Of a DNA stretch of 64,000 nucleotides, positions 1-60,038 are shown in pieces. The notes under the pieces are model-generated. The model saw nothing but the letters and a program-made list of their open reading frames with translations. It did not search any database and had not been told where the DNA came from. Location: assembly GCA_026075535.2 (NCBI GenBank), contig AP026544.2:2790001-2854000 (forward strand), given 5' to 3'. The DNA is from Tricholoma matsutake. Taxonomy: Eukaryota; Basidiomycota; Agaricomycetes; Agaricales; Tricholomataceae. Position numbers and translations under genes: made by a program. Numbering within the stretch: position 1 is the stretch's first letter; each line of letters opens with the position of its first letter.

Positions 1-760
1 GGTAGTGATGGCAGTCAGTGGTGGTTTGTTGTCATTGTCCCTAGCCTCCCCATCATCATCATCAGGTCCTCTCATCTTCTGGTCCTCATTGTTGTCTGTC
101 CCTTGTCCTCTTCATTGTCATTGTCAGTAGTACCTAAAAAGTTTGTTAGTTAACAAAAAATGAAATGAGAACAAAAAAGATTACCTATGGCACCAAGAGA
201 CATTGTTGACATCTCTTGGGCCTTTTTCCCCAGGTTTTGCTCATCATTCCCACTGTCCCATCTCACCCGCTCCCCATTTCTACCCCATGAGCAGTGCTGG
301 GGTGCTGGGCTCCCAGGTTCTCCTTCATTGTTGTTATCCCCCTTCCTGGCATGGTGGTGATTCCCTCCTCTCCCTGCCTCCTCCCTGCCTCCCATTGTTG
401 TTGTTGTCTCATCCTCATCCTCATCCCTGTTGTCTTGTTGTCATCTGGTTTGTTGTCCTTTCATTGGCTCTCATCTCCCATTGGCCCCATTGTTCCCATT
501 GTTCCTCACCCCCATTGTCTCGTTGTCGTCTGGTTCATTGTTGTCCTTTCATTGTTGTTTGTTCCCTCTTGTCTCCCATTGGCCCCATTGTTCCCATCCT
601 GTTGCTCCTGTTTCCACCCCATGAGCAGTTGCTTGCAGCAGTGAAATGGGGTGCTGCTGTGGTGGTGGTGATGGCGGTCTGTCATTGTCGTCTGGTCCTT
701 GTCCTGGACCTGGTTGACCTGATGGTCTCTCTCCATGTGGTGCTAGGTTCATAGTTTATC
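1..760. repeat. Hairpin-rich non-coding repeat, interior of a TIR-type element
   Basis: The region is rich in tgg/ccc/ttg words and has no credible gene; long open frames here are compositional. It holds one hairpin-intron cassette (134-222, minus) and two copies of the 'CCCCATGAGCAGT' motif (near 285-297 and 618-640) that also mark elements A1, B and C. By comparison with 16600-17625 it looks like the interior of another such element whose left end lies outside the window. No terminal repeat could be placed. Confidence 0.55.
134..222 (-). other. Hairpin-intron cassette 1
   Basis: On the minus strand a stem CCAAGAGA/TCTCTTGG (189-222, extended by GGC/GCC with one bulged A) is followed by an intron-like segment 184-134. 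Its donor reads GTAATC, a TTAACTAAC branch-like site lies near 144-153, and the acceptor is TTTTTAG before GTAC. The same architecture recurs 14 more times in this window. Confidence 0.6.
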
Positions 761-2040
761 TGGGTGTGGGTAGAGTTAGTGTTGATGGAGATGGGTGTAG
801 GGGATGCACCTGGTGGGTATCCCACTCCTCAGGTCTCCCGATGCCTCTCTGCAGCCTCCTAAGTGCAAATGAAAGTGGTGTTGTTGAGGTGTAATTGGGG
901 TCATAGTTTTCATTATCTGAGAATGTTAGCAGGTTAAAAAGAGAAGAAAAATACTTAGTTGCATTGTTTTGAAAGGCCCCTTGGTCAGTTGGCAGTTGTT
1001 GACATGAGATTTCATGTGTGATGTGGTGCTCTGGTGTTGCCATTCAGGCATGGAGTCATCCCAAGTATCAGTTTCCTAAGAAAAGGAGAAAGAAATTATG
1101 TACCTACTAGGGCATTATTGAGTGGTGATAACTTGAACAACATCGATTGAGTATGATCACAGTTGTTAGTTGTGTTCCCAGTCTCAACAGTTCACTTCAT
1201 GACTGTTGTACAATTAATGAAAGGTTGATATATATAAATTAAGTAAAACTATGATATGTTACTGGCTAGCTGGGCCCTTTGGCAATACCCATGAAAACCT
1301 GTGACACCATGTGCATGGGTGCAGTATAACACAGGTTCAATATTTCAGGCACTGTACCTGCACCTGTATAACCTGTGACCTCAACACCGCAGGTTTACCC
1401 ACACTCATGCTATACCCTAGGATTCCCATGGCCTCAGCATCATCTTTGTTGTCCCTTTATCATTGTGAGTAGTTATCAGTAGTTGTAAACAGGGATAGAT
1501 CATTCATACCTGATAGGTATCCCAATAAATGGGCCCAAACACCCTGCTGAGATATTTATCACATGAAATCCCCTTGGATAACTTTGTTCATGTTGTTTTG
1601 ACCTTCTACTTATTGGTTGTGACTGTAATGAGTGATTTCCATGCAAGGAGTTCTCCATAGATGCCCTCAAGCCTCCCCCAACCTGCATGTCAAACATTTT
1701 TTAAGGGCCTCAAGCTGACCCCCCTCCCACATGATGTCATGGATTTGTGTTCTGCCACCCCCTTGGTTCCTGAGATATTCACCAGTAGCCAACAGTGTCT
1801 TGCAAAACAACCATCTACTAGAACCAAGACTGTATGCAAACTGTGGTCTGGGTTAGAAGACCATTTTGCAAATATTGTTCTTATTAGATGTACTGTTTGC
1901 AAATTATCATTCTTACTAGAGACCCTGCTTTGCAAACTACCTTGCTGTCATAAACCTGACAGTTTACAATGTCTAAATATAGGTTCTATACCATCCACCA
2001 TGACACTCAACAGCCAAGTGTTTCCCCCTTGGAATCAATT
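761..2040. other. Unassigned repeat-derived DNA
   Basis: No gene is supported. Around 1291-1345 a stem AACCTGTG/CACAGGTT is visible, and a related AACCTG/CAGGTT pair at 1367-1392; these resemble the AAACCC hairpins of element E. The open frame at 1661-2281 plus has no recognisable domain and overlaps the next palindrome. Confidence 0.4.
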
Positions 2041-2436
2041 TACTATCATTGACCCAGTAGTGCAAGAAGACCCAGTGCAAGATTTGACATTTAAGCAGCT
2101 CAGCTTCAACTTCTCCCTTCATGAAAATTTCTACATATGGGTGTTATATCTAATATACATATTCCAAACCCAGGGGTCTGTATGTCAAGTGTGTGTAGAA
2201 AGAACAAAGAAAAACCTCATTTTTGCAAGTTTGCAAACACTGCCAAATTGTAACCCATTTTTGCATCTCATTACAACTTAGCTTAGCTTCCCTCAAAAAA
2301 TCAGAAAAAATCACTAATGGAATCTTGAGATGGTATAGTATATATGACAGACTTGAAGTGGGAAAAGATTTGAGCATGTTGAAAAGTTAGACCACAAGTG
2401 CAAGATTCTTGCACTACTGGGTCAATGATAGTCTTG
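2041..2436. repeat. Imperfect foldback palindrome
   Basis: The left arm from 2043 contains ATCATTGACCCAGTAGTGCA; its reverse complement lies near 2410-2436. The arms diverge towards a centre near 2240. The shape suggests a MITE or foldback element. No target duplication was found. Confidence 0.6.
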
Positions 2437-2570
2437 TCCCCATCTGTTGTGGTGTCAAAATACAGTGCAGAGATTGCACCACAACTTCTGTGTCTTGTAT
2501 TTTGAACCTCCGCTGATCCATCTGGACCACAGGTCCACTCGCAACCTGGACCATTGAGTTCTCCTGAGCC

Positions 2571-3190
2571 TGTTAAGGGCAAAGCCTCAACCACTCGATC
2601 TAGTCAATGTTGTTTGACGAGGTGCTTCCTCAACAAGTCATTCGGCACTAGTCTTACTTGGAGCATCCGATGTAAGAGAGATAGTGCACTCTAGCAGGCC
2701 TTCTGCACAGAGTTGTTCAGGTTCACGCACTAAGGGGCTTCCTTAGTGGTTTCGAGTAAGTTCGCAAGTTCACAAGTTAAGGCTGTTAATTGCCTAGATC
2801 TAAACTAAGGACATCCCTACTACAAGTTGCAGTACTTATACTAGAAGGGAGGTCCTTATCATCCAATTGGAAAGGTAGATGCATATCAAGTAATAATAGA
2901 AACAATAGGCCTCATGCCTTGCATGAGGTGTCTGATGTCACGGACCTCATGTCAAGAAGCTGTCATATCACAGCATGTGTGGGAGTGGGTTTGGGTGCAT
3001 GGAGTCACCATGCATCAAGGGTGCCTTCCACAGGAAGGGGATCGAATGCATGCAGTCGGCATGCGTTGTGCGTGTGTCTGGTGTCAAGGACATGCCCTAG
3101 GCATGAATCATGGAGTGCCTCCTGTCTGGAGGGGATCGTCGGGTTGGTCGGGTTGGTCGGGTTCCATGAGTTACAAGGAAAATTGTAACA
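2571..3190 (-). repeat. 3' LTR of element 1
   Basis: 620 bp, TG...CA ends. It matches 9869-10629 except that the latter has about 140 bp more inside. It contains the CATGCCTTGCATGAGG type palindrome and a TATA-like site matching the other LTR. Confidence 0.92.
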
Positions 3191-3207
3191 TTACCCCCCC
3201 GCTATGG
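3191..3207 (-). other. Polypurine tract of element 1
   Basis: The minus strand reads ATAGCGGGGGGGTAA immediately before the 3' LTR. The same tract precedes the LTR at 28570, which ties the two elements to one lineage. This is the usual site for plus-strand DNA priming. Confidence 0.8.
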
Positions 3208-3479
3208 TCGAAAGTTCCACACTTCGACCTAAATCTTTGTCTCTCCTTTGTGGTCTGATCGGGCGTGGTCTGGTTATGTGGGTAGGTTGGGGTCAAGGGG
3301 TATGATGGAGGAATCGTTCATGTCCAAGCTTGGACCATGATCGGGTTCTTTTCGTTTTATACTGCCTTTAGCAGTGGTGTCAAAGACTCAGTGGTGTCAT
3401 CGGAAGGGGGAGGGGTGTGTAGGGTTTGCGCAGTATCAAGGGTAATCACTGTAGTTTTATATCTTTGCAGATGATCGCT

Positions 3480-3641
3480 AGTTTAACGTCTTTGTGGACG
3501 GTCAGTAGTTTAACGTCTTTGCGGACGGTCGGTAGTTTAACGTCTTTGCAGATGGTTGGTAGTTTAACGTCTTTGCAGACGATCGCTAGTTTAACGTCTT
3601 TGTGGACGATCAGTAGTTTAACGTCTTTGTGGATGATCAGT
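3480..3641. repeat. 27-bp tandem repeat, six copies, in the 3' untranslated part of element 1
   Basis: Six units begin AGTTTAACGTCTTTG. Each can form a small hairpin CGTC(T)TTG..GACG; changes fall mainly in the loop and the spacer. It lies between the extra ORF and the 3' LTR. It is not a CRISPR array because there are no unique spacers. Confidence 0.85.
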
Positions 3642-3647
3642 TCGCAC

Positions 3648-4127
3648 CTAGTTGTGCTCAGTGGTCTGGGGTGTCAGTGTATGGGGGTGTTGGCTGGAAT
3701 GCAGCAACATCCCCAGTTCTCCATGTCGTCCAAATAAGAGCTGCCTTGCCAGCTCGAATCCACTTTCTTTGTCGTAGTGGGTGTTCCACTGAAGGTCATT
3801 CCACAGTAGTGGGCCAATCCCCGCTAGTGGTCTCCTGCCTGGGGTCAGACCATCGCAGTCGACAACAAATTGTTTGGGGAGATAGTCTCTGCCGTCTAAC
3901 TCTTCTTCAAAGCACCACTCCTCAAATTGTGCTTTTACCCAGGTCAAATCCATTTTTGTGCTCCTTCACGCATAGAGGCAGCATGTTGGGCAAGTCGAGG
4001 ATATTCTCTTTATCCAGTCGTCTCTGTTTATCCAGAATGTGATTCCGTGTGGGCATTCCCAAGAGGGTTGCCCCAGCAGTCTGTTCGTTCTTGGTGACTG
4101 GTCAATGACTCGTCGTCCAGTTGCCAT
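3648..4127 (-). pseudogene. Extra ORF downstream of pol in element 1, function unknown
   Basis: An ATG at 4127 opens a frame of about 159 residues to the stop at 3648, broken once by TGA in GCG-TGA-AGG, a position where a CGA arginine codon is the simplest source. The predicted protein starts MATGRRVIDQSP, has several cysteines in its first half (CPHG, CPTCC) and an acidic, Trp-rich middle (EEWCFEEELDGRDY). I do not recognise a family. It follows the chromodomain by about 145 bases on the same strand and lies outside the gag-pol frame. One stop in 160 codons is similar to or fewer than the density in pol, so it may once have been coding. It could be an accessory ORF or a captured host sequence. 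Confidence 0.5.
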
Positions 4128-4272
4128 GTTCTTCTTGTATTCGTTCTTTATTGAAAGGGGGTGGGGGTGGGAGTGAACGTGAAGGGTGTCAACGTTCAGT
4201 GGGTCAATCGTTGTTTAGGGGGGTATCATGGGTGTCGTTTGGTTCAGATAGTGGGGGTTTCTTGGGTTCTTG

Positions 4273-7200
4273 TCAGAGATGGTACCTCTTCTTATATGCT
4301 GTCAGGATCTCGGGGGCATTCTTCAGGTTCAATTTGGGTTCCCATGTGTTTTCGGATGTCGGGTAGTCAACCCATTTCACGAGGTAATGGCGTGTCTTGC
4401 CGTGCTTCTTGTGTGCGATGATTGCTTCCACTTCGTATTCGTTTTCTCCTTCCACGAGGTTGGGTGGTGGAGTCAGGAAGTTCCATCCATGAGTGTCATT
4501 CTTGTGGTATCACGTGAGTAAGGCCGCATGGAATACTGGGTGGATCTTCCATCTTGGCGGCAGTTTCAGTCAATATGTCGTTCTCGACAGGGCGTCTTCA
4601 ATCAAGACGGGCCCTTCTCGTTTTGGCACCAATTTTCTCATTGGGTAGCCAATCTTCAGGTTCTTGGAGTCAAGCCATACTTGTTCTCCAACCTTAAATG
4701 GTTCGTATCGCCCTTTCATTTGGGCAGCCATAGCCTGTCTGGCTAGTTCGTGTGTGGCAAGAGCTTCCCTTCTCGCAGTGAGAAGTTCCTGGATTCTCTG
4801 TTTGGTGGCCGGCATGTTCGTCTTTTCATAAGGGGTGGGGATAGCGCGTGGTTGATATCCCATCATCAAGTAAAATGGCGAATGTTTTACTGCGGAGTGC
4901 GTCTTCTGGTTGTGCGCGAATTCTGCCATTGGGAGGTAACGTTCCAAATCTTTGGGTTTGTTTGAACAGAACATGCAGAGGTAAACTTCTAGTTCTTGGT
5001 TTACTCGCTCTGTTTCTCTGTCGGTCTGGGGGTGATAGGCGGTGCTCATGGATAGCTTGATTCCGAGCAGTCATCCGAGTTCTCAGAAGAGTTTGGACAA
5101 TTGAGGGTCTCTGTCTGAGATGATTCTTCCAGGGAGTCCAAATCTGGTGTACACATGGCGCAGGTAAAGGTCTGCGGTGCCAAGTGCATCGATCATCTTT
5201 GCGCAAGGGATAAAAATTACCCCCTTCGTAAGACCATGGTCTACCATGACCATGATTGAGTCAAATCCATTTATCACAGGCAAGTCCGTGATAAAATCTG
5301 TCGTTACCAGCTCGAATGGTCTGCTGGCATTGGATGATATCGGTGTCGGCGGTGGGGTTGTCGGGTGTGTATTCACTTTCATTTGCTGGCACTTTGTGCA
5401 GCCTTCGACGTACTTTTTGATGAAGTTGGCCATTCCTGGCCACCAGTAGTCTCGTTGGATCAGTTCGATCGTCTGCCATTGTCCAGGGTGTCCTGTTGTG
5501 ATGCTATCATGGTATTTTCATATGATCGCTTGGCAGAGGGTTTCATCCTGTGGCACATAGCATCTGTCTTTGAAAAAGAGCAGGCCGTCTTCGAATTTCC
5601 AGTCCTCCAATGCAGACTTGATTGGGGGAGTTCTGTTGTTTTTCAGGGCTCATAAAGCGTCATTTATGAGGTCGTCCTTCATTATTGCTGAGACCAGGGC
5701 TCCCTGGAGCTCAGTGTCGATCGTTTTGACGAACAGTTCATCAGCGAGGATGGTCTTGTCCTCGTTATCAGTGTCTTCTTCGGCTATGTGATCTGCTCTC
5801 CTTGATAGGGCGTCAGATTGTACCATCTGTGATCCCGGTACATGTTGTAGCTTCAGGTCGAATTGTGACAGGTAGATGGCCCATCTAGCCTGTTGTCGGT
5901 TTAGTTTCTGTGGCTGACGGAAGTACATCAGGTTCTTGTGATCAGATAATACCGTCACAGGGAACGGCATCCCCTGTAGGTAGTGTCTCCATGTTTCTAG
6001 CGCTCGGATCACTCCCAATAGTTCTCAGTCGTATATCTCGTAATTTCTTTCCGCTTTGTTGAAAGAATGCAAGATGTATCTGCATGGGTGCCAGTCTCCG
6101 TTGGCATCCTGTTGTCTGAGTACTGCGCCTGTTGTGAATTTTGAGGCATCAGATTCTACCACAAATGGTTTCGTTGCGTCTGGCATCAGCAGTACTGGGG
6201 TTTGGTTGAGTTTCCTTTTTAGCACATCGAATGACTGCTGGCAGTCGTTCATCCATTCAAATTTCTGGTTCTTCTTTGTCAAGTCGTTCAGCAGTCTGGC
6301 CAGATCCACGAAGTGTCTGATGAATCATTGATAGAAGTTTCCGAATCCTAGGAAGGATCTTACATCCTTCACTGTCCTTGGCATGGGCCAGTCCTTGATC
6401 CCAGCCAGTTTCGTGTTGTCCATTGCAAGTTCATTGGGTCTGACAATCATGCCCAAGAACTCGACTTCCTGTACATTGAATTTGCACTTCTCTATTTTCA
6501 GGTAGAGATCGCATTGTCGTAGTCGTTCGAGGACCCTTTCGGTCCTTATCCAGTGTTCCTCTTCCATCTTCGAGAAGATCAGGATGTCGTCCATATAGAT
6601 GATGAGCCATCCTTCATCTAGCATATCTTGGAAGAGATCGTTCATCATGGCCTGGAATGTTGCTGGTGAGTTGCACAGCCCAAAGAACATCACCATTGGC
6701 TCGAATAGCCCTCAGTTAGTCTTGAATGCTGCCTTCCACTCGTCTCCTTTCTTTATCCATATGTTATGATATCCCCATCGAATATCAAGTTTCGTGAAAA
6801 ATCTTGCTCCCTTCAGCTTGTCCAAGAGGTCTCCAATCAGTGGCAGGGGGTAGTTGTTCTGGATCGTTCCTTCATTCAGATAGCGATAGTCTTGGCAAGG
6901 TCGTAGAGCGTCGGAGTCCTTCTTCGACACGAAGAAGAATGGGGATGCCATGGGTGATTTTGACGGTCGGATGTATCCTTTCTCCAGGTTTTCATCTAGA
7001 AACTTGTTGAGTTTCTCTTGTTCTTTTGGTGTCAATGGGTAGACTTTGCAATCCTTTGGTACAAAGCCTTCCTTCAGGTCAATCATGTGATCCCACAGTC
7101 TTGATTCCGGGAATCGTTCTGATGTGGCTTTCTCGAATACCTGTCTGTACTTCTGGTATTCAGGTGGCAGTAAATCGTCCAGGGTCCGTTGGCTAGTCTC

Positions 7201-8640
7201 CTTTCCCTCCTCTTGCTTGTGCGCTAGTTGTTGGGATATGGATGTCTTTGCTCTGATCCATATATCCGAGTTGAGTAGGTACCGTGGGGAGCCCTTGCCT
7301 TTCGTGAGCCTGCTGATCGTGTTCATTTTTTGGATGTATCTGTGTGTCGGCTCTTGATGTTCCTCTGTCAGGGGCAGTTCTATGTCTGGTCCGAATAGGC
7401 CAATGACCAGTTTGCCTCGCACGTATGCGATCAACACTGAGTCATCCTCGATTGTGTCTCGTTTGGGGGTCTGGTTCATCATCCATATGTCCATGCCTGC
7501 GTCTGCCAGTAGTTCTTCATCGGGTACCTCTTCGACCTTTACCTGAGGGGGGGTCTCCCTGGGCATAGGTATTTCAGCATTGATGGTACCATGATCTGGA
7601 GTCCTATGATCATGGGTCGGGGTAGTCTGTTGTCGAGGGTAGTTTATCCTGTTTTGTAGTGTCATTTTCACATTCCTTTTGCCGGTGCTTCCCTCCCCTG
7701 TGGAGGTTAGCAATTCCTTCATCCTTTGCACAATTCATTGTGCCCTGTCGCATTCTTTGTTTTTGCCCTTTTCCAGTTGTTTCTTCTTCTGGTTTTCTCG
7801 GGTCTTGGCGACAGCACGTCATGCTGCTTCAAGGCCTCTGGCTTGTTTAGGGGTGTTGCTGCTCCTGGTCTTTGTGACAGCTATCTGGACAGAATTTAGT
7901 TCTTTTGCTTTCCTCTCTGAAAGCCTTTCTCTTGTTTTTGCCATGGCCAATCGGGCTCGGGCAAGGCTCCTCTCTTTTTCTTCAGCGAGCCTTTCTCTTG
8001 TCTTTGCCACAGCTAGTTGTGCTCGGGCAAGGTTTCTCTCCTTCTCTTTGGAGAGTCTTTTTCTTGTTTTGGCCACAATGTGTTGAATTCGTGCCATTCT
8101 GTCATTTGGCGCCTCCCCTTTGGCGTCTACCCTAGGAAGGTTTAGGGTGTTTGGGAGGGCCCATTCGGCTCTTCTTGTCTTTTCCAGGATCTGCTGGAGT
8201 TGAGCCTGTCATTCTTCATCTCGGAACTCAAAGGTTCCCTTCTTCCAATCGATGATCGGGTTTATCTCTCACAGCCATGGCAGGCCCAGGATTACTGATT
8301 CTTTGCCTAGTCTGGCGACTAGGTATTCTATCGGGTAGCTCCTTCTGTTGATGTGGAGTCTTCCTTTCATGCATCTGGTGATCATTCCCTGCTTGTTCAG
8401 GGTCCCATCTACGTTCATGGCCCGGATGGTGTGGCCTAAGGGATATGTTCTGATCCCTTCTTGTTTGATGAAGTTTGAGTCGATAAAGACTCCTCCTGCT
8501 CCAGAGTCGAGGAGCATGTTCGTTGCGACGTCTTTCCTGTTGTCTGACTCAGCTACCCGAATAGACAGGCGCATAGATTGTCTATTCATGGTAGCTAAGA
8601 GTACAGACCCTAGGGAGACTACAGCGGTGACTGGCATCAT
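4273..8640 (-). pseudogene. pol: pol of element 1: protease, RT, RNase H, integrase, chromodomain
   Basis: One reading frame runs the whole length, interrupted only by about 13 TGA codons and no frameshift. In order: aspartic protease with LLDSGAGG (near 8500-8508); a lysine/arginine-rich stretch of five 22-residue repeats (7730-8097); RT with YMDDILIFS (near 6590); RNase H with ESDAS and DALSRR; integrase with an HHCC-type zinc site ending CTKC, then D, D (SDRDP) and E (TERVNQELE); and a chromodomain near 4290-4455 (EYEVEAIIAHKKHGKTRHYL). Arginine fits the family pattern at most TGA sites. Pol lies in the -1 frame relative to gag. Each chromodomain element in this window may use such a domain for targeting to methylated chromatin, as known for chromoviruses. 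No start codon is needed if the protein is made by frameshifting. Confidence 0.9.
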
Positions 8641-15427: not shown

Positions 15428-16071
15428 TCACAGCCCATTGTCTGTGTGCATTCCATGACCAACCTCCAGCTGCCACCTTGCAAAGTTGTGCTCCTCTGGA
15501 ACATCTCCACTCAAATGCATGTTCTGCTTGAGATGGAGGACCTGGATATTCCCCCAAAGAGGAGAGCACAGCATGGAGGCACTGACAGTCTGAGGGTGTG
15601 ATCCTCTGATGATAACAGGCAGAATCTGCTGAAAGTCCCCTCCAAAGATGATGCTAAGGCCACCAAATGGCTTGTCTGATCCATGGACATCACAGAAGGT
15701 GTGATCAATAGCATCATGGATGTGATGATGCTGCATGGGGGCCTCATCCCAAATGACCAAGTCTGCTGCACATATGAGCTCTGCATGCTTAGAAGTCTTT
15801 GAGAGGCCACAGGTGGAGGACTCATGAATGGGAATGGGAATCTTGAATGTAGAGTGTGCAGTGTGGCCACCTATGAGAAGAAGGGCAGCAATGCCTGAGG
15901 ATGCAACACAGAGAACAATCTTAGCCTGGGAGCAAAGCCTGTAACACAGAGTATTGTAGACATATGTCTTTCCAGTGCCTCCAGGGCCAGGGAGGAAACA
16001 GGTCTGGCCAGACTGAGCATTGACTGCAGCAAGGATTTCATCAAATGCCACCCTCTGATCCTTGCCTCATG
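15428..16071 (-). pseudogene. Helitron helicase domain (PIF1/RecD-like), truncated
   Basis: The frame contains Walker A in PGPGGTGKTYVYNTL, a DEAP-type Walker B (LVIWDEAPM), and FGGDFQQILPV. It breaks off after about 208 residues, so the C-terminal helicase motifs are missing. A one-base deletion just after element B (GCAAGG for expected GCAAAGG) shifts AEHEA out of the frame used by DQRVAFDEIL. It is the direct continuation of the Rep region at 18329-22504 once element B is removed. Confidence 0.88.
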
Positions 16072-16310
16072 CTCAGCTGCCAGTACTTTACACTCCCCCC
16101 CCCCAATCCGAGCAGACTCTGCTCGGACACACTCGGACACTCAGACTGTCCTCAGACTTCACTTGGACTCTGCTTGGACACTCAGACTGTCCTAGGACTT
16201 TGCTTGGACTTTGCTTGGACAACATCAATTGTGCATTTATTTACACCTTTAAAGTACTGTTTGAGTAAAGTCCAAGTTCCAGACTTAGAGAAATTCTTAT
16301 AAGTCTCACA

Positions 16311-16410
16311 AAATGATGTGTGCACAGCAAGAATTGAACCAACAGACTTCTGGACTAGCAATCACATGATGACCAAACATGCACACTCTACCACTTAAGC
16401 CAAGTAGTCA
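16311..16410 (-). other. tRNA-like Pol III unit, outward, left side of B
   Basis: On the minus strand TGGCTTAAGTGG (16391-16402) fits an A box, GGTTCAATTC (16331-16340) a B box, and TTTT (16311-16314) ends it. It does not close a canonical acceptor stem. It points to the left end of B. Confidence 0.6.
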
Positions 16411-16483
16411 TTTAAAGCTACATTCATTATATCTATTTATTACTGAAATCTAATTTTTTATATATCATGAATAGATTATTAAA

Positions 16484-16570
16484 TTGACCCCCTCGCATCT
16501 GTGTGAGGGGTAATTAATAAGTATAATACTAGGCCCTCCCCTTGCAAGCTCGAGGGGAGGGGGCCATAAC
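16484..16570. repeat. CCCTC/GAGGG hairpins in element B
   Basis: Two hairpins: CCCCTCGCA...TGTGAGGGG and CCCTCCCCTTGCA..TCGAGGGGAGGG, separated by A/T-rich bases. The same style occurs at 31395-31665, 34065-34290 and 60590-60680. Confidence 0.65.
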
Positions 16571-16875
16571 TATCAATTATAAAAATAAATTAAAAACACC
16601 CACCATGAGCAGTTGCTTGTGGCGGTGTTCATCTCTCCCCAGGTCATCCCCTGGCTGTCTCGCTCTCTAGTCCCCATTCTTCTCCCCCCCAAACCACCCC
16701 ACAAGCAGATGCTCATAGGCATGGGGCAGGTGTCATCATGGGTGTCCCCACTCTCGTTGTCATCTCCATTCCCCCTCATCTCTTCCCCCTGAACTTCCAC
16801 CCTGCAAGCAGGGGCTCACAGCAGTGGTGGTGGTGGTGTCCCCCCATCATCATTGTCGCCAGTAGTAGTTTGTAC

Positions 16876-16966
16876 CTAAAAAAAGTTAGTTAGCATCGAA
16901 AAATGAAATGAGAAAAGAAAAGAAAAACTTACCTAGGACCCAAGAGATGTTGACCTCTCTTGGGCC
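16876..16966 (-). other. Hairpin-intron cassette 2
   Basis: Stem CCCAAGAGA/TCTCTTGGG (16936-16966, plus outer GG/CC), then a 57-base intron-like segment 16932-16876 with donor GTAAGT, branch-like GCTAACTAAC and acceptor TTTTTTTAG. Confidence 0.65.
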
Positions 16967-17346
16967 TTTTTGTCTCCCTTTTGGTACCTGCACTCTCACA
17001 CCCTCCATCCACCCCATGAGCAGTTGCCTGCGGCGGTTATGGGGCATGCTGGCTGTCGTTGGCATCTCCCCTAATTGTTGTTGTTCCACCCATTGTTGTT
17101 CCCTGCCATTGTGGTCATTCCACCCACCATCCACTCCAGGAGCAGTTGCTCATGAGGCTGGAGGTGGGTGGTGCATCCTGTATGGTGGGTGTGAGGGCTG
17201 GGGGTGGGGGCTGTGTCTCATTGTCTTGTTGTTCTATCAGGGTTGCCGTTCTTGTTGTTTCAAAGTTGCACCCATTCCCACCCCATGAGCAGCTGCTTGC
17301 AGCAGTGGTTCTGAGTGCTCGTCATCATCAGCAGTACTAGATAATA

Positions 17347-17439
17347 CTTAAAAAAGTTCATGAGTAACAAAATAAGGAAAGGACAAGAAAAAAAAACTTA
17401 CCAATGGCCCAAGAGACATTGTTTGACGTCTCTTGGGCC
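17347..17439 (-). other. Hairpin-intron cassette 3
   Basis: A perfect 12-bp stem GGCCCAAGAGAC/GTCTCTTGGGCC (17406-17439), followed on the minus strand by donor GTAAGT and a T-rich segment to an AAG near 17347. Confidence 0.65.
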
Positions 17440-17704
17440 TTTTCTTCATTTGCTTTGCCTTCCTTTTATTGTTTCCTGCTCATCCCCTCGTCATTCCATC
17501 TCCCAGTCATCTCCAGTCACCTTGTTGCATTGTCATTCCATTTGGCCAAGTCGGTGTTGCCATTGTCCTGCCATTTTGCAGTTGTACCTGTTCCCACCCT
17601 GTGAGCAGTTGCTTGCGGTGGTGGTTCTGGGTCCTATGGTGGTGGCTGTGTCAGCCATTGTTGTGGTTTTGAGGCTGCAGCATTGTTATAACATAGATAA
17701 AACC

Positions 17705-17807
17705 TATCATTAAGGAAAATTCAGTTAGTTAAACAAAACAACAAAAAACATGTAAAAAAACACTTACAAGTGAGCCCAAACAACAATACCATCCATTTGG
17801 GCTTGTT
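17705..17807 (-). other. Hairpin-intron cassette 4, degenerate
   Basis: Stem AGCCCAAA/TTTGGGCT (17772-17807) with a long loop. On the minus strand it is followed by GTAAGTGTTTTTTT and a GTTTAACTAAC branch-like site. Confidence 0.5.
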
Positions 17808-17964
17808 CCCATTGTTGGTTATTGGGGTAGGAGGTAAGGAGGAGGCAGTGCCATTGACTGTGGTGGTGGTAGAGGTGATGTGCCAGCGTTGTTGATGATG
17901 CAGCTGTGTTGATTTGTCATCACAGCCAGGGTGGTACATAGAGAGATAAAACTACTTACCTGTA

Positions 17965-18057
17965 ATGATGCTTTAGTCTAATGGTTATATTGCTGCCTTA
18001 ATTGTACTTTATCATGTGACTATGAGAGTTCAATCCCTGCGGTAGCCACTGATTTTT
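17965..18057 (+). other. tRNA-like Pol III unit, outward, right side of B
   Basis: A-box-like TAGTCTAATGG (17974-17984), B-box-like GAGTTCAATCCC (18026-18037) and TTTTT (18053-18057). It faces the right end of element B, mirroring the unit at 16311-16410. Confidence 0.6.
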
Positions 18058-18328
18058 CAGTCAATTATATAAGCAACTCAGACAGTCCTAGGACTGTACA
18101 AGTGCTGGTCCACTCAGATGCTCGGACAGTTCTAGGACAGTCTGAGGACTCAGCTCGGACTGGACATCTAGTTTGGCAAGACTTTCAGCCAAAAAAGTCC
18201 AAGCAAAGTCCAAGCAAAGTCCAAGAAAAGTCCGAGCAAAGTCCTTGGACAGTCCTAGGACTGTCCGAGTGTTTGAGCAGAGTCTGCTCAGATTGAGGGG
18301 GGGGGAGTGTAAAGACCTCCTCAGCTGC

Positions 18329-21300
18329 CAACACTGCTTGCTCCTCAGCATCATACAACCTCTGCTCATTGATGAGGTGGTTGCCAACCATGGCTTGCCA
18401 GTCCTGGGTATACTGAGGCATAGTGGGCCAATCAGCAAGGGACTTGTTGGTGTGAGAGAGAAGCTGGTCAATGAGGAAGTGGCTATAGCTCTGGACATCA
18501 TCATCAGTGGGGTTGAGGCAGTTGTAGTCATGCTGAAGGCAGTAGTGCAGGTCATCACAGATGGGAATCCAAAAGGTGTTCCAGAGTGCAGCAGGGTCAG
18601 AGGGCAGACAGTTGTGAAGGATGGTCACAAACAAATGGTGAAGCTGCTGACCTGTCTGCATGGACCTGGCCTCCTCTAGACACTGATGCCACTCTTGATC
18701 ATCTTCCAACAGTCCATGGGTGAGGCAGGCCTCTCTAAAAGATGGTGCCTGCACATCTTGGAAGGTGAGGAGGTTCTCAAATGATGTTGGGCCCCTGACA
18801 GAGGTGAGGAGAAGGCAGAGATAAAAGTGCTCACCGGCAGTGGGGTGGACATAATACAGCCTGCCAACTGCAAAGCCACATTGCCTGGGGTTCCACTTGC
18901 CAGTACTCTTGTGATGCACAAATTTGGAGGGATAGTCCTAGTACAGAAGGTCACCTCCAACCTCTGGATATTCCAGGTTGGCCTTGAAGAATGCAGTGAG
19001 AGTGGTGTCCTTTGTGGCTGCTTTCTCAACAACCTGCTGAACAGTCTCCACTCTATCCTCACTCCATGTGACATTTTGCTCATTTGGAAGGTGGACATGG
19101 AGGTGAACAACATTGGGAGAGGCACCATACATGACAAATTGGAAGAGACACCAGAAGGACTTGCAGGCAGAAACATAGCAGGCATCCAAGTTCTGCCTAA
19201 CCTCATTATTGCAGGTGCCAAACTGCATAGTGACACAATTATGGCCCTTGTAAATGTACTTGTAGATGTACTTCAAGGCCTTGATGGAGGAAATGACCTC
19301 AACATTGATGTGGCAGTGATACTTCTATATGAGATAGGCACAGTAAGTGATGACCCAGCAATTGTTGACCTGCTTCCCCAAACCTCAAAGGTCTGGCCAG
19401 TGTAGTGGTGTCTTGAAGAGGCATAAGAATCATCAGAGATGGTAGTGTGCTCTCTGAAGGGCTTGGGAAAGTTCTTGGAGCACTTGCCATTGACCAAGCA
19501 TGGGGCATCAGCATTGTCATTTTCAGCACCACAGGGCTTGTGGACCATGAATTGCTTGACCAACTTGAGAAGCTCAGGATCATCAGCAGGGAGCTTGCAG
19601 GAGAGAAGACTGTCCATGTCCTCTGGGGTGTGGAGCTTGGAAGCCTCATCAAGGAAGATGATGCAGTGCATGTGGAGAAGGCCATGCTTCTGGAACTTGA
19701 TTACAAAGACATGACCAACAGCTTTGCCAAAGATGCCATGCTCAATGTCCTTGATCACCTCCTTGTGCTTTGCCTCAAAAGCCCAAACTGCCAAGTCAGG
19801 ATGGTCTGCTGGATCCTGACCTGGCAACAGGGCATTCTGGATCTCTGGCCAGTTGGCAGTCATAGTGAGAAAGAGGTTGCCACCTTTGAAGTACCAATTG
19901 ATGGCCAATGAATTCTGGAGGAGCTGCTGCATGTGGCAGGTGCTTCCAGCAAAGGAAGATAGTCCTCTGACTGAGAGCCCTGGGGTCTGCATCAATGTTG
20001 GCTGCAACAGCATCTGTGAGCCCAGAATACACCTCACTGCAAAGCTTGCCCTAGCTGTACATGATATACATCAGATCCTGCTCATGGGTGGCCCAATGGT
20101 CACACACATACTGCTGAAAGAGCTTTCCTGCCTGGAAGATATGCTGGGGCTCAATGTTGGGAGGGCATGGATGAGGGCAATAGTATAGAACTCTGACTTG
20201 GTGACATGCTTGCACTTTCAAGGCTGGCCCTCAGCAGGAGCCTCTGCAGCACCATCCTGATCATTGACCTCCTCACAACCTCTGTACTCAAGCTGGGGAT
20301 GCCATGAGAGCTGGCCAATGGGATGCAGCAGCACATAGTGGAGGGCAGGATAGAAAGGATGGCACTCAGAGATGAACTAGAGGTCATTCCTATGCTTGTG
20401 GTAGAGGACAATGTTACAATAGCCGCCTGGCTGGTCTCCATCTCCTGGAAGAATAACAGCAATCTCATTTCAGCTGGCATCAGGAAGGTTGTACTGACAA
20501 TGATTACAGCCCTCATTAAAGTGAAGAGTGCACTGCTGCTCAGGTGGCAAGGCTCAGGTGAGCTCAAAGGCCTGTCTGTAGAGTGCAACTCCTGGATGGT
20601 GGTTGTGAAGCATGTCCTGAAGATTGCTCAAGATGTCTGGTTGCAGATGGGTGTTCTCTCTGTGGTTGCGATGACGGTCAAGTGCCTGAGCAGGATCATA
20701 GATGTAAAGCTGAGAGTACACAGAATTCTTGCCTGTGAGGGGGAGAAGGGAACCTGCTTTGTGGGACAGCTCACTATGGAGCCTGAATATCCAGGGCCCA
20801 TTGCCATTGTTCATGGAGTTGTCCAGCTTTTGGCCAATGGAGGTCATGGCAAGTGCATTGTTGTAGTTGCATATGTGCTTATGGAACTCTTTGCTGAGAT
20901 GATCCTGGCCATTGAAGAGTTGGGACAGCTCATGGGGGAGGTCATGGAGATGGGGGAGATCGACTTTTCCACTGAAGCAGCACATGCCAAACTTGGGATT
21001 TATCAGAGAAGACTTGGCAGTTTTCTCTGCCATCCAATGAAGTGCATGGCATGAAGGACATTGGATATCCATACTCCCAAGACTGTGGACAGGCCAGTTG
21101 AGATTGAATAGTGAATAGCAGGGGTTACCCATGGGTAAGTGATGGGTATGGGGTAATCAGCATGTAGCCTTTGTTTTTGTGATTCTAACGCACTAATTTT
21201 TATACCAAATGGTCAAGAATTGGCCTAGATATGCTCATTCTAAATTTTAGCACCATAGCACAATATCTGATCTCACCCTGCCCAATCTTTCCAAAATATT

Positions 21301-22504
21301 ATCCAAAATCCAAGGTTCTGGAGTTTTGGGGTGACTTTTTTGGAAAGATTGGAGCAGGGTGAGATCAGATATTGTGCTATGGTGCTAAAATTTAGAATGA
21401 GCATATCTAGGCCAATTCTTGACCATTTGGTATAAAAATTAGTGCGTTAGAATCACAAAAACAAAGGCTACATGCTGATTACCCACATACCCATCACTTA
21501 CCTGCGGGTAACCCCTGCTATTCACTAAGATTGAATGGCCAGCAGGCAACAGAAAGGGCTGAACAGGTGCAGGAGCAGGAGGCTGAGCAGGAGCAGGAGC
21601 AGGTGGCTGAGCAGGAGCAGGAGCAGGGACAGGAGCAGGTGGCTGGAGGGGATTCAAAGGAGGCATGGCAGGGAAGGGCTGGTTGTTCAAGCATCAGCCA
21701 TGAAATGTACATACAAAATGGTGGAAGGAGAATACCTACCACAGGAACATCCTCTACCTCTACATTTACCCCTACTTCTACCTTGACATCCATGCACAGG
21801 AGCAACTGGCAAGGGTGGAAGAGCTGCATGCTGGGCCATGAGATCAGCCATAGGCAGTGGAGCAGGAGCAGCCCTACAACCTTGAGCCCCATGACCACAA
21901 CCTTGTTCTGCATTGACAGGAAGAGGTGGAAGAGCAGCATACTGGGCCATGAGATCTGCAAATGTGAGGGGAGCAGGAGCAGGAGCCTGGAGTGGGTGAA
22001 CACCAAAAGGGTCAGAGTTATTAGCAGTTGGACCAACCATGAACAGGGGAGGAGGAGGGAGTGGGAGGCCAATTGGAAGTGCAGGAGGTGAGCATGATGA
22101 GGGGTGCGGTGATGCTCAGGGCTATTCAGGACACGCCAGTCTTGTTCACCTTGCTGGGCAGCAATACACATCTGCTGAGGGGTGTTGGGAGGGGTTTGAT
22201 CCCTGCTGAGGCAAGGATGAGAATAGAACAAAAGAAGGAAAGAAATCAGGATGTACTCACATGGTTAAGAAGCCCAGGTGAATGAAGATGGAGCACTCTC
22301 TTGCTGCAACTGTGCACTCAGATTCTTGAAGGAAGCAGTGAAATTGGTGCAAACAATGGTAGTTGACAGTGGAATGACTTCCAGTGATGGAAGGGGAGGC
22401 AACTGCATACCCGCCAGTGCAATCTCCCTACACACTGTGCCCAGAGAGAGGTCCAGGCCCAAAATCAACTGGCAGACACTTCTTTGTTGAAAAGGAGAAG
22501 CCAT
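18329..22504 (-). pseudogene. Helitron Rep region (HUH nuclease), interrupted
   Basis: ATG at 22504 begins MASPFQQRSV. Downstream come a Pro/Ala-rich repeat region (21550-21690), WPFNLNWPVHSLGSMDIQCP (after removing the MITE), then Rep. The HUH motif is HMH in GLLHMHCIIFLDE (near 19666-19674). The catalytic tyrosines lie in KYIYKYIYKGHN (19243-19270). Several frameshifts and stops break the frame (for instance near 19280-19300 and 20150-20560). Introns near the 5' end are likely (a GTGAGT donor near 22260). Rep nicks DNA and starts rolling-circle transposition in Helitrons; the helicase part follows at 15428-16071. Confidence 0.87.
21109..21527. mobile_element. Palindromic hAT-type MITE, 419 bp
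   Basis: Near-perfect inverted arms of about 175 bp around a 60-bp centre. Ends are TAGTGAATAGCAGGGGTTAC and its inverse; the 8-bp duplication AGATTGAA (21101-21108, 21528-21535) is perfect. TAGTG start plus an 8-bp duplication fits hAT elements. Removing it with one duplication joins CWPF to NLNWPVHSLG in frame in the Helitron Rep gene. Confidence 0.92.
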
Positions 22505-23160
22505 GGTGGCAGGACTTCACTGGGCTTCACCTTGGTCTACTGATTCCTCAAGAACCCAATTGCAAAGGCAACTGGAGGAGAGAAAACACCAAACCCCACT
22601 CACCTCACTCAAAAGGCAGGTCCAGGCCCAGGCCCAGGCCAAAAGCTGGGAAGAGAAGGCCATCAGCAAAAAAGAGAGGATGGCAAGGAACACCCAACGA
22701 AAATTCAGGTGCAAACAGGCCTAGAGGGACAGATACTATGAGAAACCAAGAGGTAAAGCAGCTGAGCCACAAAAAGAAGGATAGCCAAAAACTGTAAAGA
22801 TGGGAAAAACCCTCTAAATGGCAGAAGCGAGGGGCTGCAGAACCCCAAAAACAGTGTCAGATGGTCAGCAGGACCCAATGACACCTAAACCTACCTTTGT
22901 GGAAGGCAGAACACAGGGAGAAAGGCAAGGAAGAAGAGAGGTCGTGCACAACAAATATTTTGATGCATGATGCACTGGCATGGGTTTTGCTGGTCTAAAA
23001 CAGCATGGTCTACTTAGTCAAATTTTACATAACATTAAATTTTTCCTGGGGTCAGCTGACTGACATGACTTTATTATATTACAAGGTTAGGAATGGCCTC
23101 CAGCACACATTAAGTTGTTATATACATTTTCTATATACATTAATCTAATAGTACTTTATT
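22505..23160. other. Upstream flank of the Helitron gene; no gene seen
   Basis: Presumed 5' region of the Helitron and beyond. The word CAGGCCCAGGCCCAGGCC occurs near 22620. I could not identify the Helitron 5' end or any coding sequence. Confidence 0.35.
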
Positions 23161-23870
23161 CAGGCTGACTCTGGCATGGGCCAGCTTGCTTGTACATGAC
23201 TCAATGCTTAATCCTACTACAGGTACACAATTCTTATGTTGACTTTGGATCAAAGTGAAGTCCTGCATACATTACACAATGTTTAATCCAATATGGGTTC
23301 ACAATTCTTCAGTTGACTTGGGACCTTCAGCCCCAAGTCAATGTGGGGGGTTGTTGCTCTCTCACTACTCTGCATAATGTTTAATTCTACTACAGTCACA
23401 CAGTTCTTCAGTTGACTTGGGCTCCCCATCCCCATGTGTCCCCATCCCCCCCATCCCATCACTCCATCTCCATCACCCCATCACCTCATCACCATCACCC
23501 CATCACCCCATCACCCCATCACCCCATCCCTATCTCCTCATCCCCCCCTCCTCTTCACCCCCACCCCCCCTCTCCCCATCACCCCATCACCATCAGCTCC
23601 CCCCTCCACCTCCACATCTGTGTCATGGCATTCACTCATGTTGCTCGCTCAGCCTGACTCTGGATGGGCCAGCTCATGTTCTTGCATGCATTACACAATT
23701 TTTAATCCAATATGGGTTCACAATTCTTCAGTTGACTTGGGACCTGGGGGGGTTGTTGCTCTTTCACTGCTCTGCATAGTTTTTAATCTACTACAGTCAC
23801 ACACTTCTTCAGACTTGAGTTGACTTGGGCCCAAGTCAATGTAGGGGGGCTGTTGCTCTCTTACTAATCA
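23160..23870. repeat. Diverged direct repeats of about 130 bp
   Basis: The phrase TGGGTTCACAATTCTTCAGT followed by TGACTTGGG, and CACTACTCTGCATA..TTTAAT, recur near 23280-23410 and 23690-23840, with a weaker copy from 23160. Pyrimidine-rich stretches separate them. No gene. Confidence 0.6.
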
Positions 23871-25115: not shown

Positions 25116-25120
25116 AAAAT

Positions 25121-31665: not shown

Positions 31666-31679
31666 CCCCGCTGTTGTCT

Positions 31680-34018: not shown

Positions 34019-34064
34019 TCTTATTTCTTTACCATGGAGATGCATGCAGGATGGGGGGCACCAT

Positions 34065-34290: not shown

Positions 34291-35013
34291 TTAATTGTAT
34301 TGTTGTGAGGGATGTAGGTAATAAATTTTATTTGATCTTAAGTGTGTACTGCTACCAATGACACAATGACTCCTGCTGGCTGTAAGCATGCCATCTCAAC
34401 AGTTGACAATGAGGCTACAAAAGCCAAGAAGAAGAAAACTGAGCTGAAAACAACTGAAAAGAAGAATGAGAAAGGGAAGCAAGGGGAAGGAACCTAAGCC
34501 CAAGAAGGGCAAAAAAGTGTGTGTATCATATGACACTGATGATGATAGTGACATGTAGTTGATCCTTGTATCTGTAAGCTAGTCAGTAGTGTTTATGCAA
34601 TGACCCTTACAAGTGCAGACTCAGCACAGACTTATGCGGACTTTGGGCGGACTAATGCGGACTCTGCATGGACTTATGTGGACTCCACATGGACTCATGC
34701 AGACTCCGTGTGGACTGGGGTGGAGTCCACAGCAAAAGGGGTGTAATTTTTTATTTTGGTCACAAGATGGTTGGACTCCGCACAGCGTCCACACAGTCCA
34801 CATGGATCTGTGCAGAACATATGGGGCAGTGTAAATTACTGAAGAAAAAGATGAATCATATCAATTTATAGTAGTAGCACCAACAGGAAGTGCAGCTGCT
34901 TTGCTTGGAGAATCAACTTATCACTCACTATTTGATATTAGTGACTATAATGAGAAAGGACTTACAAATTTAGCTCAGGTGAGATCTAGACTTATTGGAG
35001 TAGACTGGAAGAG

Positions 35014-35181
35014 TGTCTCCTACATCCGCAAACCTTATCTACATCCACACTCATTATCACATCTTATTCCAGTAGTATATAGTCTATACCTTGAGTACTT
35101 GTACTGTATCTTAGTTTCCTCCCCCAAAATATACTAAGTTCCTTACATGTTCCTGTTCCCTTGAGTCTCGAGTGTTGGAAG
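35014..35181. other. 168-bp insertion inside the PIF1 pseudogene
   Basis: It interrupts GVDWKS and GFYIFLDE; removing it keeps the frame. It starts TGTCTCCTACATCC and ends TGTTGGAAG; GGAAG occurs at both borders (35007-35011, 35177-35181). It contains two stop codons in the helicase frame. Perhaps a small solo LTR or TRIM; the class is unknown. Confidence 0.45.
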
Positions 35182-52731: not shown

Positions 52732-52833
52732 GGGCCCAAACGACAGCTAAATGTCATCTGGGCCCAGGTAAAGAACTTTCTTTCTATTTCATAAGAATTA
52801 TAACTAGCTAATAACTTTTTGGTTGTATTTTAG
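52732..52833 (+). other. Hairpin-intron cassette 12
   Basis: Stem GGGCCC/GGGCCC plus GACA/TGTC with two mismatches between (52732-52765), donor CAG-GTAAAG at 52768, AGCTAATAAC branch-like site, acceptor GTATTTTAG at 52833. Confidence 0.62.
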
Positions 52834-52859
52834 GTTCTGACTTTCTAGACTAATGATGA

Positions 52860-58700: not shown

Positions 58701-59280
58701 AAGTGATTTTGCATCTTTCTTCACAATGAAAAACCATCATGACCAATACGACAAGTTCAATGACTCATATACTCCTGCTTCTATCTTCTTTTTCTGCATC
58801 TCACAGATCTGTTCATACAGACCAGGAGGTATAGGGATATTATGTTCGACCCATGGAGGGTGAGGAATAACAGGGAATTTGATAGGAGGAAAGAAGTCAG
58901 GGCAAAAGCTTCCTCGTTCTTGTTCAGTCCATGCAAAACCCATTTCGTGATTTCGAATAAAATCATGCATAAGCTTTTGTTCTTCTGGCTGAGGTCTTTA
59001 CACTGCCCCATATGTTCCATGTGGATCCATGTGGAATTGCATGGACTCCGCATGGATCTGCATGGACTCTGTATAGATTTACATCCCATCTAATGAACAG
59101 TTTTAGTTATGCAACAGGGGCAGACAGTCTGCACGGATCCACATGGACTAGCTCGGATTCCACACTTTTTACTTGGATTCCATGGATTTTGGCCGTCTGC
59201 ATCCAAGATCAGACAGCAAGTACGAGCAAGGACCAGCAAGGACAGTCTGCATGCATCTGAGCAGACCATTTGAGCTTAGC

Positions 59281-59370
59281 AAAATAATGTCATGAATGGT
59301 GTTTGAACTCGGAGCCTCATGGTTAACCAATAAAGTACAGACACACATTACCATTACACTATGCAGCCAT
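59281..59370 (-). other. tRNA-like Pol III unit, outward, A2
   Basis: Minus strand TAGTGTAATGG (59351-59361), GAGTTCAAACACC (59298-59310), TTTT (59281-59284). The region between the boxes differs from the A1 copy while the boxes are kept. Confidence 0.6.
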
Positions 59371-59625
59371 TATTGTTTGTAGCCATTGATGCAACTACAT
59401 ATGACTGTTTGGCTTTGTATGACAAAGCACACAGCTGTGTCATCAACATTGCCAGCTCATCACTCACCACCACCACCATCGACAACAACCACACCGCCAC
59501 CTCACTCCCTCCCTCCTTCCCTCTCTACCACCACCATCTCCACTCTACCCACATCACCTCCACCCACTCCCAGCCCCATTCCACGGCCATGAAGAGCTGC
59601 CAACAAGCTGACCAGAAGCAATGTG

Positions 59626-59737
59626 GGCCCAAACAATGCAATTGCGTCGTTTGGGCCATAGGTAATTTTTTTAATTTGTTTCTTCTTTTTATCAACTAAC
59701 TAATTGTTGTCTTTGTTTTTTGGGTTCTAATCTACAG
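59626..59737 (+). other. Hairpin-intron cassette 13
   Basis: Stem over GGCCCAAACAATGCAA and TTGCGTCGTTTGGGCC (59626-59657), donor TAG-GTAATTTTT at 59662, AACTAACTAAT branch-like site, acceptor CTACAG at 59737, followed again by GTAAC. Confidence 0.65.
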
Positions 59738-59758
59738 GTAACAATGGACAACAATGCA

Positions 59759-59871
59759 GGCCCAAATGACACAATTGCATTGTTTGGGCTGTAGGTAATT
59801 TTTATTTATTCGTTTCTTCTTTTTATCAATTAACTAATTGTTTTCTTTGTCTTTTAGGTTCTAATCTACAG
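59759..59871 (+). other. Hairpin-intron cassette 14
   Basis: Tandem neighbour of cassette 13: hairpin 59759-59790, donor GTAATTTTTATT at 59795, TTAACTAATT, acceptor TTTTAG (59857) or CTACAG (59871). Confidence 0.62.
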
Positions 59872-59925
59872 GTAACAACTCCACGGCCACAAAGAGCTGC
59901 AAACAAGCCAACCAGAAGCAATGCA

Positions 59926-60038
59926 GGCCCAAACGACGCAATTGCATCATTTGGGCTGTAGGTAATCTTTATTTATTCATTTCTTCTTTTTCTCAACTAA
60001 CTAATTGTTTTCTTTGTTTTTTAGGTTCTAATCTACAG
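59926..60038 (+). other. Hairpin-intron cassette 15
   Basis: Hairpin GGCCCAAACGACGCAA/TTGCATCATTTGGGCT (59926-59957), donor GTAATCTTTATT at 59962, AACTAACTAAT, acceptor TTTTTTAG (60024) or CTACAG (60038). Confidence 0.65.

Follow-up and report, generated by a model that had tools for sequence, protein, structure and literature searches.

Short inverted ends together with short subterminal repeats are features of hAT transposons; Helitrons make no target duplication and have no inverted ends, and they carry a 3' hairpin with CTRR at the end. Target duplications of 8 bp are given as usual for hAT elements and are also given for Zisupton/KDZ elements (PMC12730594, in the available portion of that article), and Zisupton/KDZ genes are described as multi-exonic in the available part of PMC9297572. 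In Amoebophrya, introners consist of a repeated intron with an inverted repeat able to fold as a hairpin, one repeat lying at the 5' end of an intron and its partner at the 3' end of that intron, in the part of the report that describes them (PMC7789003). In the stretch of Tricholoma matsutake DNA analysed here (64 kb, hereafter the window), a hairpin followed by an intron-like segment recurs as what we call the A cassette, and the sequence makes it highly probable that this cassette is one of the internal modules of a family of small non-autonomous cut-and-paste DNA transposons in a matsutake-like agaric. The four elements that we could delimit are 2.0-2.7 kb long (nested insert excluded); their inverted ends are related, and their target duplications measure 8-9 bp. 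An 8-bp duplication fits hAT as well as Zisupton, one of the four being 9 bp, and the elements resemble hAT in their short inverted ends, three of eight starting CAG, and in their short subterminal repeats. To our knowledge, hAT elements do not usually contain hairpin modules with introns or tRNA-like boxes facing outward, and an interior of palindromic modules, one of them intron-bearing, enclosed by outward tRNA-like boxes is unusual for a non-autonomous transposon. No KDZ transposase was matched in the open reading frames scanned within the window, and a partner may lie elsewhere. Unlike in the introners of Amoebophrya, the entire A hairpin precedes the donor, and the mobile unit is much larger; unlike the basidiomycete Helitrons, which occur in the same window, the elements have inverted ends, target duplications and internal hairpins.

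The original prediction had proposed fifteen copies of a discrete hairpin-intron cassette, and this was borne out: the hairpin GGCCCAA..TTGGGCC is present in all fifteen of its intervals, and neither of two hairpin patterns appeared in randomized sequence. The strict pattern GCCCAAA-N8..28-TTTGGGC has eight sites in the window (0 in 100 shuffles), and GGCCCAA-N10..26-TTGGGCC has six, or 12 counted over both strands (0 in 100 simulations). An initial hairpin scan placed 10 of the 15 A hairpins above its threshold. A profile search of the 64-kb window found the intron-like segment adjoining the hairpin in 14 of the 15 copies; the profile, made from 14 A units, recovered those 14 plus the hairpin-only copy, and intron-only and hairpin-only profiles recovered the same places as the whole unit. 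The single plan claimed for all fifteen therefore holds from hairpin to intron in fourteen and fails in copy 33971, where branch and acceptor are absent. A half hairpin without intron, missing from the earlier list, lies at 32369-32396. Copies are cited here by their original starts; the minus strand carries seven of the fifteen (134, 16876, 17347, 17705, 32108, 32257 and 32416). With the letters used for alignment rows, the cassettes on the minus strand are a (132-223, hairpin and intron-like segment near the window edge, in a block, E1, where no inverted ends were seen), b (16864-16967), c (17337-17440) and d (17697-17803) inside element E2, and f (32093-32208), g (32242-32358) and h (32402-32519) inside E4. 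Those on the plus strand are e (30586-30700), i (33264-33382), j (33416-33516) and k (33969-34024, hairpin and T-run only) inside E35, l (52732-52847) in a block, E6, with no recognised inverted ends, and m (59625-59738), n (59758-59872) and o (59925-60039) inside E7. By eye, conservation continues about 15 bases beyond the acceptor, as GGTTCTAATCTACTGG.

The donor had been placed within about 5 bases of the hairpin, and all 12 donor-bearing copies agree, with a spacing of 4 bases in 11 and 3 bases in the remaining one. The claim that donor, CTAAC and acceptor run throughout stands in part, since the three signals are complete in 10 of 14 copies by script and in 9 of 14 on strict reading; copy 59626 (m) has GG in the aligned AG column and passes the script only via a downstream CTACAG. 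Elsewhere the donor GT is lost (30587 and 33265, rows e and i) or the branch site is lost (17347 and 33417, rows c and j, the branch region of j being missing). Nor does the proposed TTTTAG/CAG acceptor apply to every copy: in 32108, 32257, 33265 and 33417 the aligned acceptor is TTTCTAG|GTTATAATC, 8 bases past the first TTTTAG. Across the alignment, the 17 signal columns are 0.82 identical, compared with 0.62 in the 64 other columns (0 of 5000 permutations). Measured to the aligned acceptor, whose column is off by one in row b, the introns are 48-66 nt long, somewhat shorter than the T. matsutake mean of 77 nt stated in the available part of PMC6980582. It is plausible from these signals that the GT..AG segment of A is a spliceosomal intron, with the predicted exon-exon junction GGGCCCTAG|GTTCTAATCTACT. 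A coding reading of the cassettes was left as unproven: by eye, frames cross the hairpin but shift among copies with loop length. A protein search with an A-bearing open reading frame gave no match at E 0.001.

The original prediction knew of no named element with this layout, and it missed the transposon ends that bound thirteen of the fifteen cassettes. These cassettes lie inside four elements, E2, E35, E4 and E7, whose eight ends share TTTACACTSCCCC, seven exactly and one with one change. At no more than one substitution, the motif has eight matches in the window, which are exactly the eight ends; the other three matches carry 2 substitutions, and simulations gave a mean of 0.01 matches. 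E2 (16081-18319, minus strand, 2239 bp) ends in GAGGTCTTTACACTCCCCC on the right and CAGTACTTTACACTCCCCC on the left and is flanked by the 9-bp target duplication CTCAGCTGC; because this duplication is 9 bp, the exact ends of E2 are ambiguous. E35 (29980-34841, plus strand) measures 2721 bp when the nested E4 and one duplication are discounted, with ends GAGGTCTTTACACTGCCCC and CAGTAATTTACACTGCCCC and target duplication AAGAAAAA. E4 (30986-33118, minus strand, 2133 bp) has ends GAGTACTTTACACTCCCCC and CTGTAATTTACCCTCCCCC, lies within a B module of E35 and is flanked by ATGGTGGG at 30978-30985 and 33119-33126. E7 (58991-60951, plus strand, 1961 bp) has the duplication TTCTGGCT/TTCTGGCC (7 of 8). 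The two copies of the duplication match at 8/8, 8/8, 9/9 and 7/8 positions. All four elements carry the inverted terminal repeats and near-constant target duplication of TIR cut-and-paste transposons, the outermost end bases varying among CAGT, GAGG, GAGT and CTGT. Furthermore, E35 with E4 removed is co-terminal with E7, the two aligning from base 1 to the last base. When flanks are joined across the empty site, a reading frame remains open. E2 sits between Helitron_like_N and PIF1 segments, both on one strand, and its joined flanks are open, but the frame they run into differs from that of the PIF1 open reading frame. E7 has an RNase H-like stretch (below cut-off) on one side and an aspartyl-protease open reading frame on the other, both on one strand. 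No TTTACACTSCCCC-type ends were found in the blocks of cassettes 134 and 52732, the former running off the window. None of the 14 open reading frames of at least 110 aa wholly inside the elements reached the cut-off of any Pfam family, a transposase included, and the elements are therefore called non-autonomous; no autonomous partner was seen in the window.

The interiors of the elements are mosaics of hairpin modules. In addition to A, B hairpin modules occur in E2 (16597-17632, minus strand, starting at 16597, 16687, 16795, 16999, 17120, 17269 and 17592), in E4 (31686-32060, minus strand, starting at 31686, 31756, 31849 and 32012), in E35 (30938-30985, plus strand, the module split by E4, with more copies at 33549 and 33709) and in E7 (60227-60426, plus strand, starting at 60227 and 60375). 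Arrays of C, G/C-rich hairpins with T-rich spacers recognised by eye and folding with no profile, lie at 31385-31662 (minus) in E4 and elsewhere at 16440-16600 (minus), 34076-34350 (plus) and 60560-60690 (plus). Outward-facing tRNA-like A and B boxes stand 250-310 bp from six of the eight element ends: in E2 at 17974-18036 (plus, 283 bp from the right end) and 16331-16402 (minus, 250 bp from the left end), in E35 at 30280-30340 (minus, 300 bp from the left end), in E4 at 31236-31309 (minus, 250 bp from the left end) and 32796-32853 (plus, 265 bp from the right end), and in E7 at 59301-59361 (minus, 310 bp from the left end). The box pattern has seven matches, one of them away from element ends. 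A linked end-plus-box pattern, badly chosen in that it required GGTTCRA at a narrow distance, had none in the window. The common plan, read partly by eye, runs from the 5' inverted end through short subterminal repeats, outward tRNA-like boxes and a leader to a variable run of A and B modules, C hairpins and the 3' inverted end, which is preceded by outward boxes in E2 and E4 only. Separately, in the T. matsutake protein P0121, the order B-B-B-C is repeated in translation (by eye).

What the palindromes themselves record is best judged from their stems. The classes AAACGA, AAGAGA and AAGGGA do differ as pairs, as had been observed, and this was taken to argue for selection on a DNA or RNA stem, which as an RNA hairpin at the exon end could hide or regulate the adjacent 5' splice site. 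We consider that RNA reading quite improbable. In the intron tree (14 rows, with k excluded as having no intron), the AAGAGA copies form one clade with one change (support 87/94, fork drawn open), and the AAGGGA class is a single copy, so the paired differences reduce to roughly two events. In the main class (10 of 15 rows, with a, b, c, d and k excluded as other stem classes, and with ancestral CpG inferred), 24 of 40 inferred CpG sites have changed, every one to TG or CA, with 20 one-sided changes and 2 double changes against 4 expected by chance. An overall strand bias is likewise absent (24 G-T and 22 A-C mismatches in A stems; 38 and 29 in B stems, p 0.33, counted on 16 of the 21 B loci after five that were short or partial had been set aside), and the donor itself lies outside the stem. 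Speaking for a hairpin at the splice site are its near-constant distance from the donor and the 6 G-T mismatches against 1 A-C in the outer eight A pairs; the latter count slightly suggests constraint at the RNA level. Identity is 0.90 in the 5' outer arm, compared with 0.66 in the intron part; double-changed cells number 16 against 9.2 in shuffles (3 of 500 reach it). The covariation score is also raised, at 0.290 against 0.201 in shuffles (0 of 500), a score that related copies can raise without structure. Pairs with a double change show no excess (5 against 4.9), in a count where row d was trimmed of its outermost A-T pair and has one further possible double change. Compensation can be mimicked when a subfamily difference is counted repeatedly and a palindrome decays at its CpG sites; CpG observed/expected in the window is 0.31. 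For the most part, the A stems resemble ancient palindromes that are being eroded at CpG sites, and not an RNA switch maintained by selection, while the conserved 5' outer arm and the covariation and double-changed cells above shuffles make some constraint on the A palindrome possible. Such constraint might act on DNA: as a tentative possibility, the palindromes could serve a transposase or a host protein as sites of binding or pairing and be maintained irrespective of strand. The symmetric mismatches, the conserved outer arms, which contain no CpG, and the further palindromic modules in the same elements fit this idea, but the palindromes are internal rather than at element ends, their inner arms decay freely, and their number and order differ among elements.

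Other known kinds of mobile DNA fit less well. If the cassette itself were mobile and created introns, as introners do, its intron signals would be expected to travel as a unit with the hairpin, as they do here, and many introner families show the target duplications or inverted repeats of DNA elements in the portion of PMC9860276 that covers them. However, it is the entire element of 2-3 kb that lies between inverted ends and target duplications, and its ends are hundreds of bases away from any A intron. By eye, no duplication was noticed at cassette edges, and the cassettes are surrounded by the element's own interior. We consider this origin very improbable. Extremely improbable is that the hairpins are 3' ends of Helitrons, with a hairpin near a CTRR end. 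The window does hold two Helitron or PIF1 helicase regions, and the hairpins have palindromic G/C-rich ends, but the A hairpins are internal to elements with inverted ends and 8-9 bp duplications, a constant CTRR after the hairpin is absent, and conserved intron sequence continues beyond it.

No Rfam family matched at its gathering score. A permissive scan yielded 17 matches, all below cut-off, which we attribute to chance resemblance to inverted repeats; miRNA families give the strongest, at the long inverted repeat 21239-21396, and another match, 59627-59789, covers two A hairpins. In a viral collection, neither the A hairpin pattern nor the B pattern was found and no gypsy integrase was confirmed; the end pattern hit 27 stretches, none with the A hairpin pattern, and these were taken as chance. 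In literature text, the sole match to six end and hairpin strings concerns human microRNAs, and a query on hAT elements in Tricholoma gave none.

Returning to the transposon family, we propose that a transposase encoded elsewhere would cut and paste the elements. Within the elements, unequal exchange or slippage would have increased the number of A and B modules, which would also have been exchanged between subfamilies, and so the cassette would have spread with its carriers rather than alone. The GT..AG segment would be a true spliceosomal intron, handed down from an internal transcription unit that underwent splicing; in roughly a third of the copies it now appears broken. The palindromes would formerly have stayed palindromic, two stem classes having changed on both sides, and the inner stems of present copies would be decaying by CpG transition without compensation. 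An unlikely elaboration is a composite transposon whose ends would be tRNA-like (SINE-like) modules facing outward to a DNA-transposon inverted end. Its interior would be a spliced non-coding RNA of A, B and C hairpin exons, each A hairpin with its own intron, and this RNA could be of use to the element, for example as a decoy for RNA silencing.

Unclassified repeats are put at 25% of the T. matsutake genome in the available part of PMC10211490. Here, what had appeared to be an RNA switch becomes a defined family of mobile elements, whose ends, target duplications and empty sites are open to testing in assembled Tricholoma genomes.

The cassette, a hairpin followed by an intron-like GT..AG segment, had been predicted in 15 copies with the hairpin GGGCCCAA..TTGGGCCC, and we find this hairpin in all 15 intervals. 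A strict hairpin pattern has 8 sites in the window against 0 in 100 shuffles, a profile built from 14 units recovers 14/14 of them in the window plus the hairpin-only copy 33971, and profiles of the hairpin alone and of the intron alone give the same places. By strand, the copies divide into seven minus and eight plus, and there is a half hairpin, without intron, at 32369-32396. In the alignment the unit extends from the hairpin to roughly GGTTCTAATCTACTGG beyond the acceptor, with hairpin and donor 4 bases apart in 11 of the 12 donor-bearing copies. As for the proposed GTAAG donor, CTAAC and AG acceptor after the hairpin, 10 of 14 copies keep donor, branch and acceptor by script; one of these (59626) is without the aligned AG.

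The aligned cassette introns are 48-66 nt long; the mean intron length published for T. matsutake is 77 nt (PMC6980582). Identity is 0.82 in the 17 splice-signal columns versus 0.62 in the other 64, a difference reached in 0 of 5000 permutations. The cassette intron was probably once real and is now eroding, and we infer that it has been spliced.

The original prediction also held that the stems carry compensating changes. Pairs with a double change number 5, against 4.9 in shuffles. Across all 15 stems, paired cells make up 87.5% (81.8% in shuffles), 16 cells are double-changed (9.2 in shuffles; 3 of 500 shuffles reach 16), the covariation score is 0.290 (0.201 in shuffles; reached by 0 of 500), and mismatches comprise 24 G-T and 22 A-C. 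In the main stem class (ACGACGC, 10 copies), the 40 inferred CpG sites are now 16 intact, 13 TG and 11 CA, and the four pairs at these sites hold 20 one-sided and 2 two-sided cells, where independence of the arms predicts 4.0 two-sided. When a tree is built only from the intron part, the three AAGAGA copies group as one clade, with modest support (87/94, drawn open). Adding the single AAGGGA copy gives about two lineages with a true double change. Pointing the other way, the outer arms are better conserved (0.90 and 0.79 identical) than the intron part (0.66), and the outer eight pairs have 6 G-T mismatches to 1 A-C. In the B hairpins, a second module, the covariation score is 0.196 versus 0.180 (50 of 500 shuffles reach it), with 38 G-T and 29 A-C mismatches (p 0.33). 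We read the cassette palindromes as mostly decaying via CpG transition.

Comparison of the window with itself places the cassettes within larger repeats, whose paired ends were obtained from an inverted-repeat search. Allowing up to one substitution, TTTACACTSCCCC has 8 occurrences in the window, which correspond to the 8 ends of four elements with shared inverted ends: E2 (16081-18319), E35 (29980-34841), E4 (30986-33118) and E7 (58991-60951). E4 lies within one of the B modules of E35. Each of the four is bordered by a direct duplication (CTCAGCTGC, AAGAAAAA, ATGGTGGG and TTCTGGCT/TTCTGGCC). With the element removed, the joined flanks of E35 and of E7 stay open in one frame; those of E35 resemble what we take to be a PIF1-type helicase, and further downstream that strand carries a PIF1 match. 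E7 has as neighbours, on one strand, an RNase H-like stretch (below cut-off) and an aspartyl-protease ORF in a gypsy-like arrangement. E2 is flanked by two Helitron gene segments on one strand, and its joined flanks are open, but lead into a frame other than the PIF1 frame. E7 aligns with E35, less E4, from first base to last, and 13 of the 15 cassettes (all but 134 and 52732) lie within the four elements. We read E2, E35, E4 and E7 as non-autonomous cut-and-paste transposons. The Helitron/PIF1 helicase regions at 15431-20070 and 29561-36019 are each broken by one of them.

Inside the elements, a leader is followed by a variable number of cassettes and B modules (~52 nt; 21 loci in the window by profile, 16 inside the four elements) and then, on the 3' side, by C, arrays in which T-rich spacers separate G/C-rich hairpins; these arrays were read and folded. 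By eye, some copies also share a short recurring stretch with a GTAAGCACCC-like donor at its end. The window contains 7 tRNA-like two-box matches, against a mean of 1.0 and a maximum of 4 in 100 simulations. Six lie inside elements (16331-16402, 17974-18036, 30280-30340, 31236-31309, 32796-32853 and 59301-59361), each directed at the nearer end, 250-310 bp away, at 6 of the 8 ends; such outward boxes amount to SINE-like ends on a DNA transposon. Short tandem repeats (e.g. TGTGGACTTA x8), which are not alike from one element to another, lie directly inside the inverted ends at 60728-60809, 59038-59071, 34614-34731, 31008-31118, 16135-16221 and 18194-18244. Fourteen ORFs of 110 aa or longer lie wholly within the elements; a Pfam scan of the complete set gave two weak matches and none at cut-off. 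The longest open stretches are 132-259 aa. In E35 (259 vs 202 aa) and E7 (182 vs 136 aa) they are longer than the maximum from 50 shuffles and run antisense to the cassettes; in E2 and E4 they stay within that maximum.

Helitron and gypsy pieces are present in the window, and at least 120 matches are listed for a gypsy integrase ORF; among those listed, just two carry an organism name, in both cases Lyophyllum shimeji. One T. matsutake protein aligns with an ORF across three B hairpins at 83% identity, covering 46% of the query; 11 other proteins, of jgi or ena origin, also match, and several of these, by eye, contain B-type repeats more than once. These matches place the window in an agaric near Tricholoma. 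Across the window CpG is depleted to 0.31 of expectation; observed/expected is 0.06-0.16 within 16000-32000 versus 0.65 at 4000-8000, which suggests that these sequences differ strongly in age or methylation. A 420-bp inverted repeat at 21109-21527, with 93% identity between the sequence and its reverse complement, attracts sub-threshold miRNA-family matches and is probably a foldback element or MITE. There is also a minisatellite at 24078-24534 (24-bp unit, 19 copies, 98% matches). Upstream of cassette 134, several short GT..AG intron-like stretches between short open exons can be seen by eye on the minus strand (700-1300), maybe the remnant of a protein gene.

To which known system do these transposons belong? 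Their 8-bp duplications fit both hAT and Zisupton (PMC12730594), and no transposase that would decide between the two was seen. Introners differ from the cassette because intron ends and element ends do not coincide here; those of Amoebophrya have inverted repeats at both intron ends (PMC7789003). A term search of the accessible text of Tricholoma genome papers gave no mention of hairpins or palindromes, and the literature searched held no description of these ends or hairpins. The cassette is internal cargo that the elements carry and that probably multiplied within them by module amplification; the elements themselves would move in trans.
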